64,000 nucleotides of DNA from Luteipulveratus flavus (GTDB taxonomy: Bacteria; Actinomycetota; Actinomycetes; Actinomycetales; Dermatophilaceae), in NCBI RefSeq assembly GCF_029439465.1, contig NZ_JAROAV010000008.1:62001-126000 (forward strand), given 5' to 3'. Under the pieces are notes generated by a model. The model made no database searches. It had not been told where the DNA came from and saw nothing but the letters and a program-made list of their open reading frames with translations. Both the position numbers and the translations under genes were made by a program. Below are positions 823-62,221 of the stretch, in pieces. Position 1 is the stretch's first letter; each line of letters starts with the position of its first letter.

Positions 823-2148
823 TCACTCGAAGGAGGACAGCAGGTCGGCGTACACACCGAAGACGCCGACGAGGACCGGCACCGCCACGAGGACGGTCAC
901 GCTCTCGACGCGCGACGCGGTCCGGCGCAGCTGGGCACCGAGGTGGTCGGCCAGATGGACCACGGAGGCGGTGAGGACACCGATGCCGGCCAGCGCCAGC
1001 AGCGCGGCGAGCGCCCCAGCCCACGACGGGCGGTCGTCCACGGCCGCCACCATGAGCGCGACCGGCCCGACACCTGCGGCGACCCAGATGGCCGTGCGCT
1101 CGGCGGTGAGCGGGAAGTGCCGGCCACGCAGCGCGTACGCCAGCGAGACCAGCAGCGTCAGTGCGGTCGGCCAGGGCTGCAGGTCGCTGCTTCGGGCGCT
1201 CGTCCCCGTGCTGACCGCGAGGACCGCGCTGGTGAGCACGACCCCGCCCAGCAGCATCCAGTGCGCCTCGGCCACCCGCGCGTGCGCGGCCCGCTCGAGC
1301 ACGAGCTCGCCGCGGGTCACCTGGGTGTCGACGCCGAAGACGCCCGACTGCGCGAGCGCGAGCCGGGGCAGGAGGCCGAGCAGCAGCAGCGCGGCCACCG
1401 AGGTCACGGCCCCGGTCTCCACCGCGCTCCCGGTCAGCAACCACGTCACGGCGGCCATGGCCGACAGCAGGACCAGAGCACCGGCGCCCGTCAGGCCGAT
1501 CAGGATGCGCCGGGCACACGCGCCCACCGCGCACATGACGACCAGGGCGGCCCCGACGGCCGCGGCGTACCGCCAGACCGGCTCGGTGTCCAGGAGGGCC
1601 ACTGCGGCGGCCGCGCAGACCAGGCCGAGTCCGGTGAGGGTCCAGGCGACGGCCCGTACGCGGGTGGGTGCGACCACCGTGGCGCCCGCACACGCCAGCA
1701 GCGCCACGACGCCGAGCAGCATCGTGGCCGCGGTGCGCTCGACCGCGCTCGCTGCGAGGGCGGCGCCGGCTGCGAGCAACGCCGACCCGACGAGCGCGAG
1801 GGCCCCGGCCCGACCCTGCTCGGTCCAGGCGCCCCGAGGCGTCGCCGACTCGACGGCGTCGACCATGTCGTAGACCGCGGGCGCCGGAGGTACCTCGTGC
1901 GAGGCGACGACCCGCAGTCGTACGCCGTCGCGCAGGCCCGCGTCGCGCAACGGCTGCTCGGGATCCAGCGTCCGGCCCGTCTCGGTGACCAGCTCGACCC
2001 GGCCCACGGGCACGGACTCGCGCAGCACGTCGAGCAGCTGCGGGACCAGGTGGGCCACCGGCTGGTCGGCCGGCAGGACGAGATCGGCGTTGCGACCGGC
2101 TCCCAGCACGGTGGCCCGCAGGTACGGGGTCCGGGACGTCGTGGTCAC
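823..2148 (-). CDS. eccD: Type VII secretion integral membrane protein EccD
   Basis: This 441-residue protein would form the inner-membrane pore component of an ESX/type VII secretion machine. Residues about 1-95 look like the ubiquitin-like YukD domain of EccD, including strands such as RVELVTETGRTLDPEQPL. About eleven hydrophobic segments follow from residue 130 to the end (for example MLLGVVALLACAGATVV). The length is close to the usual 450-500 residues. Its ATG overlaps the stop of the small membrane gene 2145-2444 (ATGA), and an ATPase-fold gene follows, giving one operon on the minus strand. EccC, EccB, mycosin and WXG100 genes are not in the window and probably lie to the left. Confidence 0.85.
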   Translation of the reverse strand: MTTTSRTPYLRATVLGAGRNADLVLPADQPVAHLVPQLLDVLRESVPVGRVELVTETGRTLDPEQPLRDAGLRDGVRLRVVASHEVPPAPAVYDMVDAVESATPRGAWTEQGRAGALALVGSALLAAGAALAASAVERTAATMLLGVVALLACAGATVVAPTRVRAVAWTLTGLGLVCAAAAVALLDTEPVWRYAAAVGAALVVMCAVGACARRILIGLTGAGALVLLSAMAAVTWLLTGSAVETGAVTSVAALLLLGLLPRLALAQSGVFGVDTQVTRGELVLERAAHARVAEAHWMLLGGVVLTSAVLAVSTGTSARSSDLQPWPTALTLLVSLAYALRGRHFPLTAERTAIWVAAGVGPVALMVAAVDDRPSWAGALAALLALAGIGVLTASVVHLADHLGAQLRRTASRVESVTVLVAVPVLVGVFGVYADLLSSFE

Positions 2149-2444
2149 GGTGCTCGTCCCTCTGCGGAAGGCTGCTGGAGCCGGGTGATCTGCGCGGACG
2201 GCACCGCGGGGACGCCGCCGCCCTGGCGCAGCGTCGGGTCGCTCGAGAGCAGGTGCGTCACGAACGACACCGCCACGCAGCCGGTGGCGGCGAGCGCGGC
2301 GAGGAAGACGCCGGCCACGAAGGTCCGAAGCCGGTCCGACCAGTCCCGCCGCAGGCGCTCCTGCCCGAACATCAGCGCTCCACCGAGCCGTTGCCGCCGC
2401 GTGGCGACCGACTCGATGAGCAGGTCGTCGTAGCTGTATGACAC
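2145..2444 (-). CDS. Small single-pass membrane protein at the head of the type VII secretion operon
   Basis: This 99-residue protein has a basic amphipathic N-terminus (SVATRRQRLGGALMFGQERLRRDW), one transmembrane helix at about residues 36-58 (TFVAGVFLAALAATGCVAV), and a short Pro/Gln-rich outer tail. The layout recalls the N-terminal anchor of EccB without its large periplasmic domain, so it may be a minimal EccB-like subunit; this is inference. GTG at 2444 has a GGGAGG ribosome site 7 bases upstream. The stop overlaps the eccD start by 4 bases, which indicates translational coupling. Confidence 0.7.
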   Translation of the reverse strand: MSYSYDDLLIESVATRRQRLGGALMFGQERLRRDWSDRLRTFVAGVFLAALAATGCVAVSFVTHLLSSDPTLRQGGGVPAVPSAQITRLQQPSAEGRAP

Positions 2445-2630
2445 GTGTTCCCTCCCTGGCCGCGGCGGCAGCGAGCCTTCCCCTGGCTCGCCGAACGGCC
2501 CCGTCGCCCCGGGCACGCTACGTCACCCGAACCGCGGGGGTGGGCTTCCCGGGCCTGCCATTTCTCGGTCATCGGCAGATCGGACGGGCGGGCCCGACCG
2601 ACGTCCCGCGTCCGCGAGCGACGTCAGCCA

Positions 2631-2636
2631 TACTGT
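2631..2636 (+). promoter_or_regulatory. -10 box TACTGT, leaderless start at 2642
   Basis: TACTGT is followed by 5 bases and the GTG start. The spacing puts transcription start on or next to the initiation codon. Confidence 0.5.
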
Positions 2637-2641
2637 CGGCC

Positions 2642-3976
2642 GTGCGTGCCCGTGTTCTCGCTGTCCTGTCCGCCTGCCTGCTCGCGTGCGGCGTCCTCGG
2701 TGTGCAGCCGGCCTCGGCCGCCGACCAGCCGTCGTTCACCGTCAACGGCCAGGACCTGCGGCTGAGCACCGCGCTCGGCTCGGCCCAGCAGGTGCAGCCC
2801 GGTCTGTACAAGGCGACCCTCCCGCAGGGTGGCTCCACCCTCTACGCCGCGGTGACCCGCCGACCGGGCGAGACACTCATGGTCAGCGTCGCGGGTGCGG
2901 CGCGCGAGACCGGTCGGCCGTACTTCGCCAGTGGCGACCACAAGCTCGCGGTCAACCTGGTGATCCCGTCCAAGTACGGCGGCGACCCCACCACGTGCGG
3001 GGCGAACTCCTCCAGCGGCGCCACCCTGAGCGAGGGCGACCCGTTCGGCACGCTCACCGCCACCAACCTCATCGACGGCGCCAAGACCAAGCGCGCGCTG
3101 TTCCTCTCGGAGGACTGCGCGGCGGCGACCACCCTGTACGTCGAGGTGACGCGCGAGGCGCCGGCCGCTGCCGGGACGATGCCGGTGGAGCTGCTGGTGC
3201 AGCGGGAGCCGCGGCTGACCGGCACGCCCGACCAGCCGGCCGGAGGCGCCGAGCTGACCGACCTCACGACGCTGTCGAAGGACGACGCCGTCGTGGTGCG
3301 GCCCGGTCGCGGCTACAGCGACGCCGCGACGCTGCCCGCGACCGGGACGACCCAGCTGGACGCTCGCCTCGGTGAGACCTCCTGCTACAAGGTCCGGGTG
3401 GGCTGGGGGCAGCGCCTCGGGGCCGTCGTCCAGCTCCCGCGACCGGGCGCGCGGATCTCGCCGCAGGTGGACACCTCGATCGAGGTACAGATCCGCAACC
3501 CGCAGCGCGCGCTGGTGGACGACGACTCGGCGTCCCAGCAGGCCGAGGGCACGACCAGCCCTGCGGACGCGAGCGTGTCGACCACCGGCGTCCACTGGTC
3601 GAACCGCAACGCGGACTACACCGCCGGCGGCGACATCGGTGCGGACTCGGTCCAGGACACCTCGACCGCCGGGTGGTACTACGTGTGCGTCCGCGCCGAC
3701 CCGTACAGCAAGGACGAGACCAAGAAGGACGTCCAGCCCTACCCCGTCCAGCTGACGGTGCAGGTCACGGGGACGGCGACCGCCGGCCCCCGGTACGTCG
3801 ACGCCGCGAACCGCGCGATCACCTCGCCGCCGCCCGGGCAGCTGAGTGTGGGCAGCTCGCAGGGTTCCGACGGCTCGTCGGTGCCGTGGGCTCGCGTCGG
3901 GATCGGCGCCGTCACGGTCCTGCTCGCGGCCGGGGCGGTCGTCTGGGCGCTGCGGGCGCGCCGCCGCACCGCCTGA
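2642..3976 (+). CDS. Secreted, C-terminally membrane-anchored protein of unknown function
   Basis: This 444-residue protein has a signal peptide (RARVLAVLSACLLACGVLG, cleavage probably after ASAA), a large beta-rich extracytoplasmic region, a linker rich in Gly/Ser, and a final transmembrane helix (VGIGAVTVLLAAGAVVWAL) followed by RARRRTA. Three cysteines in the outer region (in TTCGAN, SEDCAA, TSCYKV) could form disulfides. The GTG start sits 5 bases after a TACTGT -10 box, consistent with a leaderless transcript; frame upstream of it is non-coding in character. It is divergent from the type VII secretion genes, whose clusters often hold such anchored proteins. No domain was recognised with certainty. 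Confidence 0.75.
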   Translation: MRARVLAVLSACLLACGVLGVQPASAADQPSFTVNGQDLRLSTALGSAQQVQPGLYKATLPQGGSTLYAAVTRRPGETLMVSVAGAARETGRPYFASGDHKLAVNLVIPSKYGGDPTTCGANSSSGATLSEGDPFGTLTATNLIDGAKTKRALFLSEDCAAATTLYVEVTREAPAAAGTMPVELLVQREPRLTGTPDQPAGGAELTDLTTLSKDDAVVVRPGRGYSDAATLPATGTTQLDARLGETSCYKVRVGWGQRLGAVVQLPRPGARISPQVDTSIEVQIRNPQRALVDDDSASQQAEGTTSPADASVSTTGVHWSNRNADYTAGGDIGADSVQDTSTAGWYYVCVRADPYSKDETKKDVQPYPVQLTVQVTGTATAGPRYVDAANRAITSPPPGQLSVGSSQGSDGSSVPWARVGIGAVTVLLAAGAVVWALRARRRTA

Positions 3977-3995
3977 CCTCGTACCCCCACCCCAC

Positions 3996-4051
3996 CGGCA
4001 AAACCTGGCCGGCAGCACAGCCATGCATGTGCGCGCCGCCAGCTTTCGCCG
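3996..4051 (+). repeat. 56-bp nested palindrome, locus 1 unit a
   Basis: Outer arms are CGGCAAAACCTGG and CCAGCTTTCGCCG; inner arms are GCACA and TGTGC around GCCATGCA. It lies between convergent genes and is followed 63 bp later by unit b. It belongs to the family also found at 31914, 33062 and 62104. Confidence 0.85.
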
Positions 4052-4058
4052 CACCACC

Positions 4059-4114
4059 CGGCAGAAGCTGGCCGGCAGCACAGCCATGCATGTGCGCACC
4101 GCCAGCTTTCGCCG
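4059..4114 (+). repeat. 56-bp nested palindrome, locus 1 unit b
   Basis: Outer arms are CGGCAGAAGCTGG and CCAGCTTTCGCCG; the inner core is identical to unit a. It ends 13 bases before the stop of the kinase gene on the other strand. Confidence 0.85.
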
Positions 4115-31901: not shown

Positions 31902-31913
31902 CCCCTCCTCCCC

Positions 31914-31969
31914 CGGCAAAAGGTGGCCCCCGGCACACCCATACCTGTGCCCACCACCACGATCTGCCG
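31914..31969 (+). repeat. 56-bp nested palindrome, locus 2 unit a
   Basis: Outer arms are CGGCAAAAGGTGG and CCACGATCTGCCG; the inner core is GCACA-CCCATACC-TGTGC. The outer arms differ from the other loci, with a swapped base pair at arm position 10. Confidence 0.85.
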
Positions 31970-31976
31970 CGCCCTC

Positions 31977-32032
31977 CGGCAAAACGTGGCCGCCCGCACA
32001 GCCATACCTGTGCCCACCACCACGATCTGCCG
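31977..32032 (+). repeat. 56-bp nested palindrome, locus 2 unit b
   Basis: Outer arms are CGGCAAAACGTGG and CCACGATCTGCCG; the inner core is GCACA-GCCATACC-TGTGC. Arm positions 9-10 read CG where other loci read GC, with matching changes on the other arm. It ends 6 bases before the stop of the nuclease gene. Confidence 0.85.
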
Positions 32033-32038
32033 CGTGGG

Positions 32039-33007
32039 TCACGCGGAGACGTTCACACCTTCCACCCAGATGCGCCGGGGCGACTGGCGCACTCCCTGAG
32101 CGTGAAGAGCCCTGGCCATACCGACTCCGACGAAGGCGTCGTCCCACAGCCATCGCGCGACCCTCGTGCCGGTCGCGCGCAGCCGATCCTCCCGGACCTT
32201 CTCGCGCACCAGGGTCTCCTGCATCTCCTCCGGAGTCTGCGCGAAATCCGTCCCGTACTTGGAGGCGCCGTCGAATTCGCCGACGACCCCTTCCCACTGG
32301 AAGTCGACGTACCCGATGAGCCCCTGACCGTCATGGTGAGGAACTTGCAGCCGTGGCCGCGGGAAGCGCAGCAGGAACATCTGCCCCCGGCTCAGGCTCT
32401 CGCCGGGCGAGGCCGAGACCGGGTCTACGAGCTCGACCAGGTGCCCACAGTCGCTGCGCCCCGGGGTGCCTGGCGCGACCCGTTCGACCTCGGCGACCAG
32501 CTCGCGGCGAGTGCAGAGTCCGTGCCGCACGGCGTGATCCGCAGCCACGAGGCCGTTGAGCAGTCCGGTGTCGCGGGTCAGGTCCAGGACCGTACGCGCG
32601 GGCGGCGTGACACGCAGGCCGTCGCGCTCGACGTACGCGCACTCCTCGTCCTCGCGCCGGATCACCAAGCCGGACCGGCTTGCTCGGGTGCTGTCCCGGA
32701 CGAGGACGTGGACCTTGCGCGGCCACGGGTCCGCCACGGGGATGCCCCAGACAGCAGCGGCCGAGTAATGGGAGAACACGGGCAGCCCGGAGCGGGCCAT
32801 CAGCGCGCAGGCGTGGACGAACGCCCGATGCCGGTCGTCCGTTCCGAGGCTCGTCCAGTCCGACGAGCGGATGCACACCCCGTGGCGGACCATCGTCCAG
32901 GTCCTGTCACCCTGCTCGTCGCGCAGGACTCGTGGTTCCTGGGAGACGTCCCGCAGGGATCGGCTCGTGACCAGCATGTGGGGCTCGAACTGGCGCGATC
33001 GGCTCAT
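32039..33007 (-). CDS. PD-(D/E)XK-like nuclease with N-terminal AbiEi-type winged helix, between two repeat loci
   Basis: This 322-residue protein starts with a segment resembling AbiEi antitoxin/winged-helix regions (PVFSHYSAAAVWGIP near 76-90; TPPARTVLDLTRDTGLLNGL). Its C-terminal part has DUF559/Vsr-like nuclease residues: SPGESLSR (200-207), VDFQWEGVVGEFDGASKY (234-251; Asp235, Glu244, Asp246, Lys250) and EKVREDRLRATGTRVARWLW. ATG 33007 is chosen, as further upstream the frame enters repeat locus 3. Paired 56-bp repeats flank it on both sides in one orientation. Function unknown; a link between nuclease and repeats is a hypothesis. Confidence 0.75.
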   Translation of the reverse strand: MSRSRQFEPHMLVTSRSLRDVSQEPRVLRDEQGDRTWTMVRHGVCIRSSDWTSLGTDDRHRAFVHACALMARSGLPVFSHYSAAAVWGIPVADPWPRKVHVLVRDSTRASRSGLVIRREDEECAYVERDGLRVTPPARTVLDLTRDTGLLNGLVAADHAVRHGLCTRRELVAEVERVAPGTPGRSDCGHLVELVDPVSASPGESLSRGQMFLLRFPRPRLQVPHHDGQGLIGYVDFQWEGVVGEFDGASKYGTDFAQTPEEMQETLVREKVREDRLRATGTRVARWLWDDAFVGVGMARALHAQGVRQSPRRIWVEGVNVSA

Positions 33008-33061
33008 GGCTGCTGACGGTGGCAGACCGTCGGTCCTCGCGACGCTCGCCATCCACAGGCC

Positions 33062-33117
33062 CGGCAATAGCTGGCGACCAGCACACGCATACCTGTGCCC
33101 GCCACCAACTTTTGCCG
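33062..33117 (+). repeat. 56-bp nested palindrome, locus 3 unit a
   Basis: Outer arms are CGGCAATAGCTGG and CCAACTTTTGCCG; the inner core is GCACA-CGCATACC-TGTGC. It lies 54 bases upstream of the nuclease start. Confidence 0.85.
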
Positions 33118-33123
33118 CCCCAC

Positions 33124-33180
33124 CGGCAAAAGCTGGCGGACAGCACACGCATACCTGTGCCCGGCGCCAACTTTTGCCCG
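33124..33180 (+). repeat. 56-bp nested palindrome, locus 3 unit b
   Basis: Outer arms are CGGCAAAAGCTGG and CCAACTTTTGCC, with one extra C before the final G. The inner core equals unit a. The period to unit a is 62 bp. About 55 bases without other signals separate it from the next gene's stop at 33236. Confidence 0.85.
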
Positions 33181-62091: not shown

Positions 62092-62103
62092 CCTCACCCC
62101 CTC

Positions 62104-62159
62104 CGGCAAAAGCTGGCGCCCAGCACACGCATACCTGTGCCGACGACCAACCTTTGCCG
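62104..62159 (+). repeat. 56-bp nested palindrome, locus 4 unit a
   Basis: Outer arms are CGGCAAAAGCTGG and CCAACCTTTGCCG; the inner core is GCACA-CGCATACC-TGTGC. It lies between the convergent GT4 and sdhB genes. Confidence 0.85.
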
Positions 62160-62165
62160 CCCTCC

Positions 62166-62221
62166 CGGCAAAAGCTGGCGCCCTGCACACGCATACCTGT
62201 GCCGACGGCCAGCTTTTGCCG
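62166..62221 (+). repeat. 56-bp nested palindrome, locus 4 unit b
   Basis: Outer arms CGGCAAAAGCTGG and CCAGCTTTTGCCG are perfectly complementary over 13 bases, the best copy in the window. The inner core is GCACA-CGCATACC-TGTGC. The period to unit a is 62 bp. Confidence 0.88.

Follow-up and report, generated by a model that had tools for sequence, protein, structure and literature searches.

The window, a stretch of 64,000 nt from the 4.15-Mb genome of Luteipulveratus flavus (G000), contains a gene for a predicted nuclease with a tandem pair of palindromic repeats on each side, and two further pairs lie far from it. The neighbors of the gene encode GntR/UTRA, bPH_6, and DeoC proteins. The features are as follows.

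32039-33007, minus strand: nuclease gene, 322 aa, with an AbiEi-like N-terminal part and a Vsr-like PD-(D/E)XK C-terminal domain (open reading frame, coding score, PADLOC, structure model, and fold matches)
32423-32986, minus strand: AbiEi-like part (residues 8-195), presumed to bind DNA (fold match and PADLOC)
32084-32410, minus strand: Vsr-like predicted nuclease domain (residues about 199-308) with E203, D235, E244, D246, and K250 (fold matches and conservation)
31913-31969, plus strand: palindromic repeat copy 1, 3' of the nuclease gene stop (repeat match and folding)
31976-32032, plus strand: repeat copy 2, in tandem at 63-nt spacing, ending 6 nt past the nuclease gene stop
33061-33117, plus strand: repeat copy 3, 54 nt upstream of the nuclease gene ATG
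33123-33179, plus strand: repeat copy 4, in tandem at 62-nt spacing
3995-4051, plus strand: dispersed copy of the repeat between convergent genes
4058-4114, plus strand: dispersed copy, tandem partner of 3995-4051
62103-62159, plus strand: dispersed copy between convergent genes
62165-62221, plus strand: dispersed copy with the strongest hairpin among the six copies folded (DNA z-score -5.7)

Thus, the first-pass annotation was right that repeat pairs stand on both sides of the gene, 6 nt past its stop and 54 nt before its ATG, with all four copies in the same orientation, and that half of the pairs in the window are at this gene, the other two of the four being at 3995-4114 and 62103-62221.

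The codon usage of the gene is coding-like, and the AlphaFold2 model of its product has a pLDDT of 92 and a pTM of 0.89. On comparison of the model with known structures, the AbiEi antitoxin 6y8q matched residues 8-195 with a Z score of 10.4 but an rmsd of 6.3 over 168 aligned residues, and the PADLOC AbiEi models match residues 12-177 (E 2.8e-15). Residues from about 199 to 308 resemble the catalytic domain of the homing endonuclease I-Bth0305I (3r3p, Z 9.6), NGO0050 (3hrl, Z 8.7), and Vsr (1cw0, Z 8.0), with a weaker resemblance to TnsA of Tn7 (Z 5.1). This domain has the alpha-beta-beta-beta-alpha-beta core and the conserved acidic residues of a Vsr-like PD-(D/E)XK fold, from which nuclease activity is predicted. 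Of 74 family members, 73-74 share E203, R207, and D235; the residues from E244 to Y251 are equally conserved in these 74, but the search pattern [VLI][GI]EFDGxxKY favored them. Neither Pfam nor NCBIfam gave a match to the window protein at E < 1. PF01797, the Y1 HUH transposase, is absent from the protein and was not found in trans in G000 or in two other genomes of the same genus (G001 and G002), in searches that detected the positive controls.

The repeat is an imperfect palindrome of ~57 nt, arranged in tandem pairs 62-63 nt apart, with the consensus CCGGCAAAAGNTGGnnnnnnGCACAnnCATRCnTGTGCnnnnnnCCAnCTTTTGCCGG. Its center is asymmetric and the repeat therefore has a direction; the conserved inner mismatches that give the palindrome this polarity may be likened to the bulge of enterobacterial REPs. 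The inner position pairs 15-42 and 25-32 pair less often than in shuffled sequences. The repeat can fold into a hairpin (DNA z-scores of -2.0 to -5.7 in the six copies tested), and a conserved bipartite dyad is kept. Compensatory base changes, which we had suspected by eye, were rejected since arm covariation in the family was not above that of shuffles, and given this result we make no claim of selection for hairpin pairing itself. The repeat had no match in Rfam.

Searches of G000 for the repeat core yielded 79 forward-strand matches at up to one mismatch, and in the stretches examined 50 sites carry 78 copies between them, which stand alone, in pairs, or in triples. All but one of the 50 sites examined lie outside called genes, though ~93% of the window is coding, and 19 of 46 sites fall into gaps between convergent genes, compared with 11 of 64 adjacent gene pairs in the window. 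Chance alone would place ~0.7 neighboring pairs among 50 sites less than 1.15 kb apart in 4.15 Mb, and the bracketing in the window alone is therefore not significant. Because ~50 sites make two close ones unsurprising, evidence from outside was needed, and it is the replication in relatives that is significant.

The order of GntR regulator, nuclease, PH-domain protein, and DeoC is kept in both G001 and G002. In G002, the nuclease at this locus is 71% identical to that of the window and has pairs of the window repeat on both sides. In G001, it is 55% identical and is bracketed by tandem pairs of another palindrome, CGTACGAAACCCGTCTG...CAGACNGNNTTCG, and diverged copies of the window-type repeat persist elsewhere in that genome. 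The G001 gene (G001:C2:2541782-2542705) is moreover inverted relative to its conserved neighbors, as if it had been flipped between its bracketing repeats. Across the two siblings the GntR regulator is 82% and 84% identical and DeoC 92% and 93%, against 71% and 55% for the nuclease, which therefore evolves faster than its neighbors.

A profile search of the three genus genomes revealed 20 family members, and flank matches between the genomes placed members in five syntenic ortholog groups. The repeats to the left and right of the gene match each other in 18 of the 20, compared with 2 of 392 sliding windows. The check put forward in the first-pass annotation was whether other nuclease genes adjoin these same repeats. 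For the window repeat this did not hold, as it was found beside no other family member in G000; it does hold for the palindrome belonging to each gene, since the other G000 members each have their own palindrome on both sides. Therefore, a test for enrichment of the window repeat near other nuclease genes would give a false negative. Orthologs beside clpB have palindromes with a common theme (CGAGAGGCCCACC, CGAGAGGACCACT, and CGAGAGGCACACC).

The same arrangement was found well beyond the genus. In named actinobacteria, the flanks match at a score of at least 40 in 51 of 80 homologous loci, while flanks paired from different loci did so in 0.6% and shifted windows in 0.4% of cases, and none of 344 real neighboring genes had matching flanks. 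In an evenly drawn sample of the phylum, 46 of 198 actinomycetotal genomes contained a family member, and 18 of 29 newly fetched loci were bracketed, compared with 0 of 812 mismatched flank pairs. The bracketing repeats are about 57-85 nt long and mostly palindromic (median self-score 61 versus 18.6 when shuffled), and their orientation is direct in 13 cases, inverted in 15, and indistinguishable in 20. Recognizable bracketing repeats are missing in about 10-38% of members; at some loci they may have been overlooked or lost, as at G001:3514788, which is without them while its orthologs have them. One of these orthologs, G002:C1:810716-811593, is broken into two frames with its flanking palindromes and their dispersed copies kept, and is a natural knock-out, whereas the frame at G001:3514788 is open.

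Nearly every family gene has a different palindrome; similarity between palindromes sets in once the proteins exceed about 65-75% identity. For protein pairs of more than 55% identity, the mean palindrome similarity was 32.6, versus a maximum of 22.4 in 2000 permutations. When 14 palindromes were searched in the three genus genomes, most of them were also present at other places in the genome of their gene. Counted as distinct places, because palindromes match on both strands, the other sites among the matches listed numbered at least 13 for G002:5155620, at least 9 for G000:C31, at least 8 for G001:2541782, and at least 7 for G001:3030435. Likewise, 11 of 15 named genomes had 1-14 dispersed copies of the local palindrome among the matches listed, for example Naasia (at least 14) and Glaciibacter superstes (at least 13); in the other four there were none among the matches listed. 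One genome (G009) contains many copies of the Glaciibacter-type palindrome besides its own and probably has a second family member.

Palindromes are also present in one genome and missing from the orthologous intergenic site of a sibling. The sites of the palindromes at G002:1410796 and G002:3917380 are empty in both G000 and G001, and the G002 site orthologous to the palindrome at G000:C27:201180 is empty as well. At the site of G000:C4:29103, the palindrome present in G001 is instead that of the orthologous gene family. No target-site duplications were found in these comparisons, although the genus genomes have diverged too far for junctions to be read exactly.

Taking these results together, we interpret the gene, together with the repeat pair on each side of it, as a REPtron-like unit with a non-homologous enzyme, with a probability of roughly 0.7. 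The family genes are chromosomal, vertically inherited at fixed loci, and evolve faster than the genes next to them, and each would encode an enzyme that recognizes its own family-specific palindrome. The AbiEi-like part would bind the cognate palindrome, probably in a folded or cruciform state, and the Vsr-like site would cut at or beside it, after which repair or replication could place a copy elsewhere. In this manner the palindrome would multiply, or have once multiplied, within its genome, entering intergenic sites as a non-autonomous element. Enzyme and palindrome change together in each lineage, and lineage-specific recognition would keep the pair matched. The first-pass annotation had proposed that a nuclease other than an HUH enzyme might be the partner of these repeats, as RAYTs are for REPs; with 18/20, 51/80, and 18/29 loci bracketed, this is strongly supported as an association. 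We also lean, by a smaller margin over even odds, toward the broader proposal that Vsr-fold PD-(D/E)XK enzymes guided by an AbiEi-like part form a phylum-wide class that acts on palindromic elements in the manner of a transposase, in an independent invention of the REPtron.

Nunvar and colleagues (PMC2817692) defined RAYTs as fast-evolving genes at fixed loci that are flanked by repeats, with which they coevolve and which occur throughout the genome; features of REPtrons and RAYTs for this comparison were also taken from PMC8266576. The present family resembles them in that the gene is flanked by cognate palindromic repeats, that these are dispersed genome-wide, that enzyme and repeat coevolve (permutation test and ortholog groups), and that the gene keeps its locus while evolving more quickly than the genes around it. 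It differs in the enzyme, which is Y1/HUH (PF01797) in RAYTs and AbiEi-like plus Vsr-like PD-(D/E)XK here, in the longer palindromes, and in the orientation of the flanking repeats, which are always inverted in RAYTs and are direct, inverted, or indistinguishable here. Lacking the Y1/HUH domain and the constant inverted orientation, the family falls outside the RAYTs, although it works like a REPtron.

The strongest competing explanation is that the protein is a domesticated DNA-binding regulator, or one that organizes the chromosome, and that the palindromes are functional binding sites spread by other machinery or by recombination. AbiEi antitoxins bind inverted repeats, and both the AbiEi-like part found by fold and by PADLOC and the conserved dyad of a window repeat that shows no pairing covariation would suit such a protein. 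However, a mere binder would not account for the conservation of E203, R207, and D235 in nearly all 74 members, even when the residues partly forced by the search pattern are set aside. In addition, the sites between convergent genes are poorly positioned for promoter control, and palindrome copies have been gained and lost at orthologous sites. We consider this rival unlikely, though it deserves more weight than any of the following.

Improbable, in our view, is an IS-like or homing element in which the gene and its palindromic ends move as a unit and lone palindromes are deletion derivatives. The homing endonuclease I-Bth0305I shares the catalytic fold, the G001 gene is inverted relative to its neighbors, and, as with IS elements and MITEs, short dispersed elements are related to the termini of a unit that carries a gene. 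The family nevertheless differs from IS elements and MITEs in its fixed syntenic loci, the same in all three genus genomes, and in having no multicopy gene; no target-site duplications were found among the sites compared, in genomes too diverged to give exact junctions. Near-identical gene copies within one genome, the mark of insertion sequences, were not found, and the G000 members compared are 33-41% identical in pairs, so that there are no recent gene copies among them. Spread by phages or plasmids was rejected, as the family had 0 matches in 50,697 phage records and 3 in 72,556 plasmid records. In NZ_LR134451.1, labeled Tsukamurella 'plasmid 9', a family member annotated as an AbiEi antitoxin has tatB and mrp next to it, and this record may be a chromosomal piece.

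Membership in a type IV toxin-antitoxin (AbiE) or other defense system appears more improbable still. The N-terminal half is like AbiEi antitoxins in fold and sequence models, including the PADLOC match, and one relative is named 'type IV toxin-antitoxin system AbiEi family antitoxin' at NCBI. However, no AbiEii-like nucleotidyltransferase toxin adjoins the window gene, and at five other loci the neighbors, judged from their sequence, are ordinary genes (those for 6-phosphogluconate dehydrogenase, IMP dehydrogenase, and ribosomal protein S10 among them). The family also differs from AbiEi antitoxins in its extra nuclease domain and its dispersed cognate palindromes, and gene-specific dispersed palindromes are not a feature of AbiE. 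The catalytic fold is common to Vsr, the EDxHD homing endonuclease I-Bth0305I, and the MTES_1575 and DUF559 nucleases, from which the family differs in the AbiEi-like fusion and in the dispersed palindromes, a link that is not known for those nucleases in the open-access literature that was searched. The first-pass annotation had offered as an alternative that the gene was captured between two repeats. Capture between unrelated insertions, or hairpins serving only as terminators, would fit intergenic repeats near gene ends and the close site pairs expected by chance. As a general explanation, however, this is refuted: 18/20, 51/80, and 18/29 family genes, but 0/344 other genes, have the same family-specific sequence to their left and right, and this sequence differs from gene to gene. 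We consider it negligible.

The partner enzyme of REP-type repeats has so far been described as an HUH transposase, and a non-homologous family with the same genomic signature in 46 of 198 sampled actinomycetotal genomes now assigns a partner gene to palindromic repeats in Actinomycetota and suggests a new route of repeat multiplication. If the proposal is true, short interspersed repeats are spread here by Vsr-fold PD-(D/E)XK chemistry, for which such a role had not been known. Lone AbiEi-like genes that are counted as toxin-antitoxin or defense genes in Actinomycetota may be something else, and many natural enzyme-palindrome pairs are available for testing. The open-access literature on DUF559, AbiEi, REP, RAYT, and actinobacterial palindromes, preprints excluded, contained no description of a link between such an enzyme and palindromes.

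Two further observations concern the repeats of G000. Several contig ends of this draft genome (C12, C13, C24, C46, and C53) lie at or near repeat copies, suggesting that the assembly breaks there. At about 1780-3150 of G000:C21:333500-338500, direct copies of ~260 bp, identical at 259 of 260 positions and each with a repeat pair, enclose ~0.85 kb with a lipoprotein-like reading frame in it. A 1.1-kb gene duplication at 335-336 kb of this contig was rejected, the duplicated part being only ~260 bp, and the arrangement appears to have arisen recently, by duplication or by integration at the repeats.
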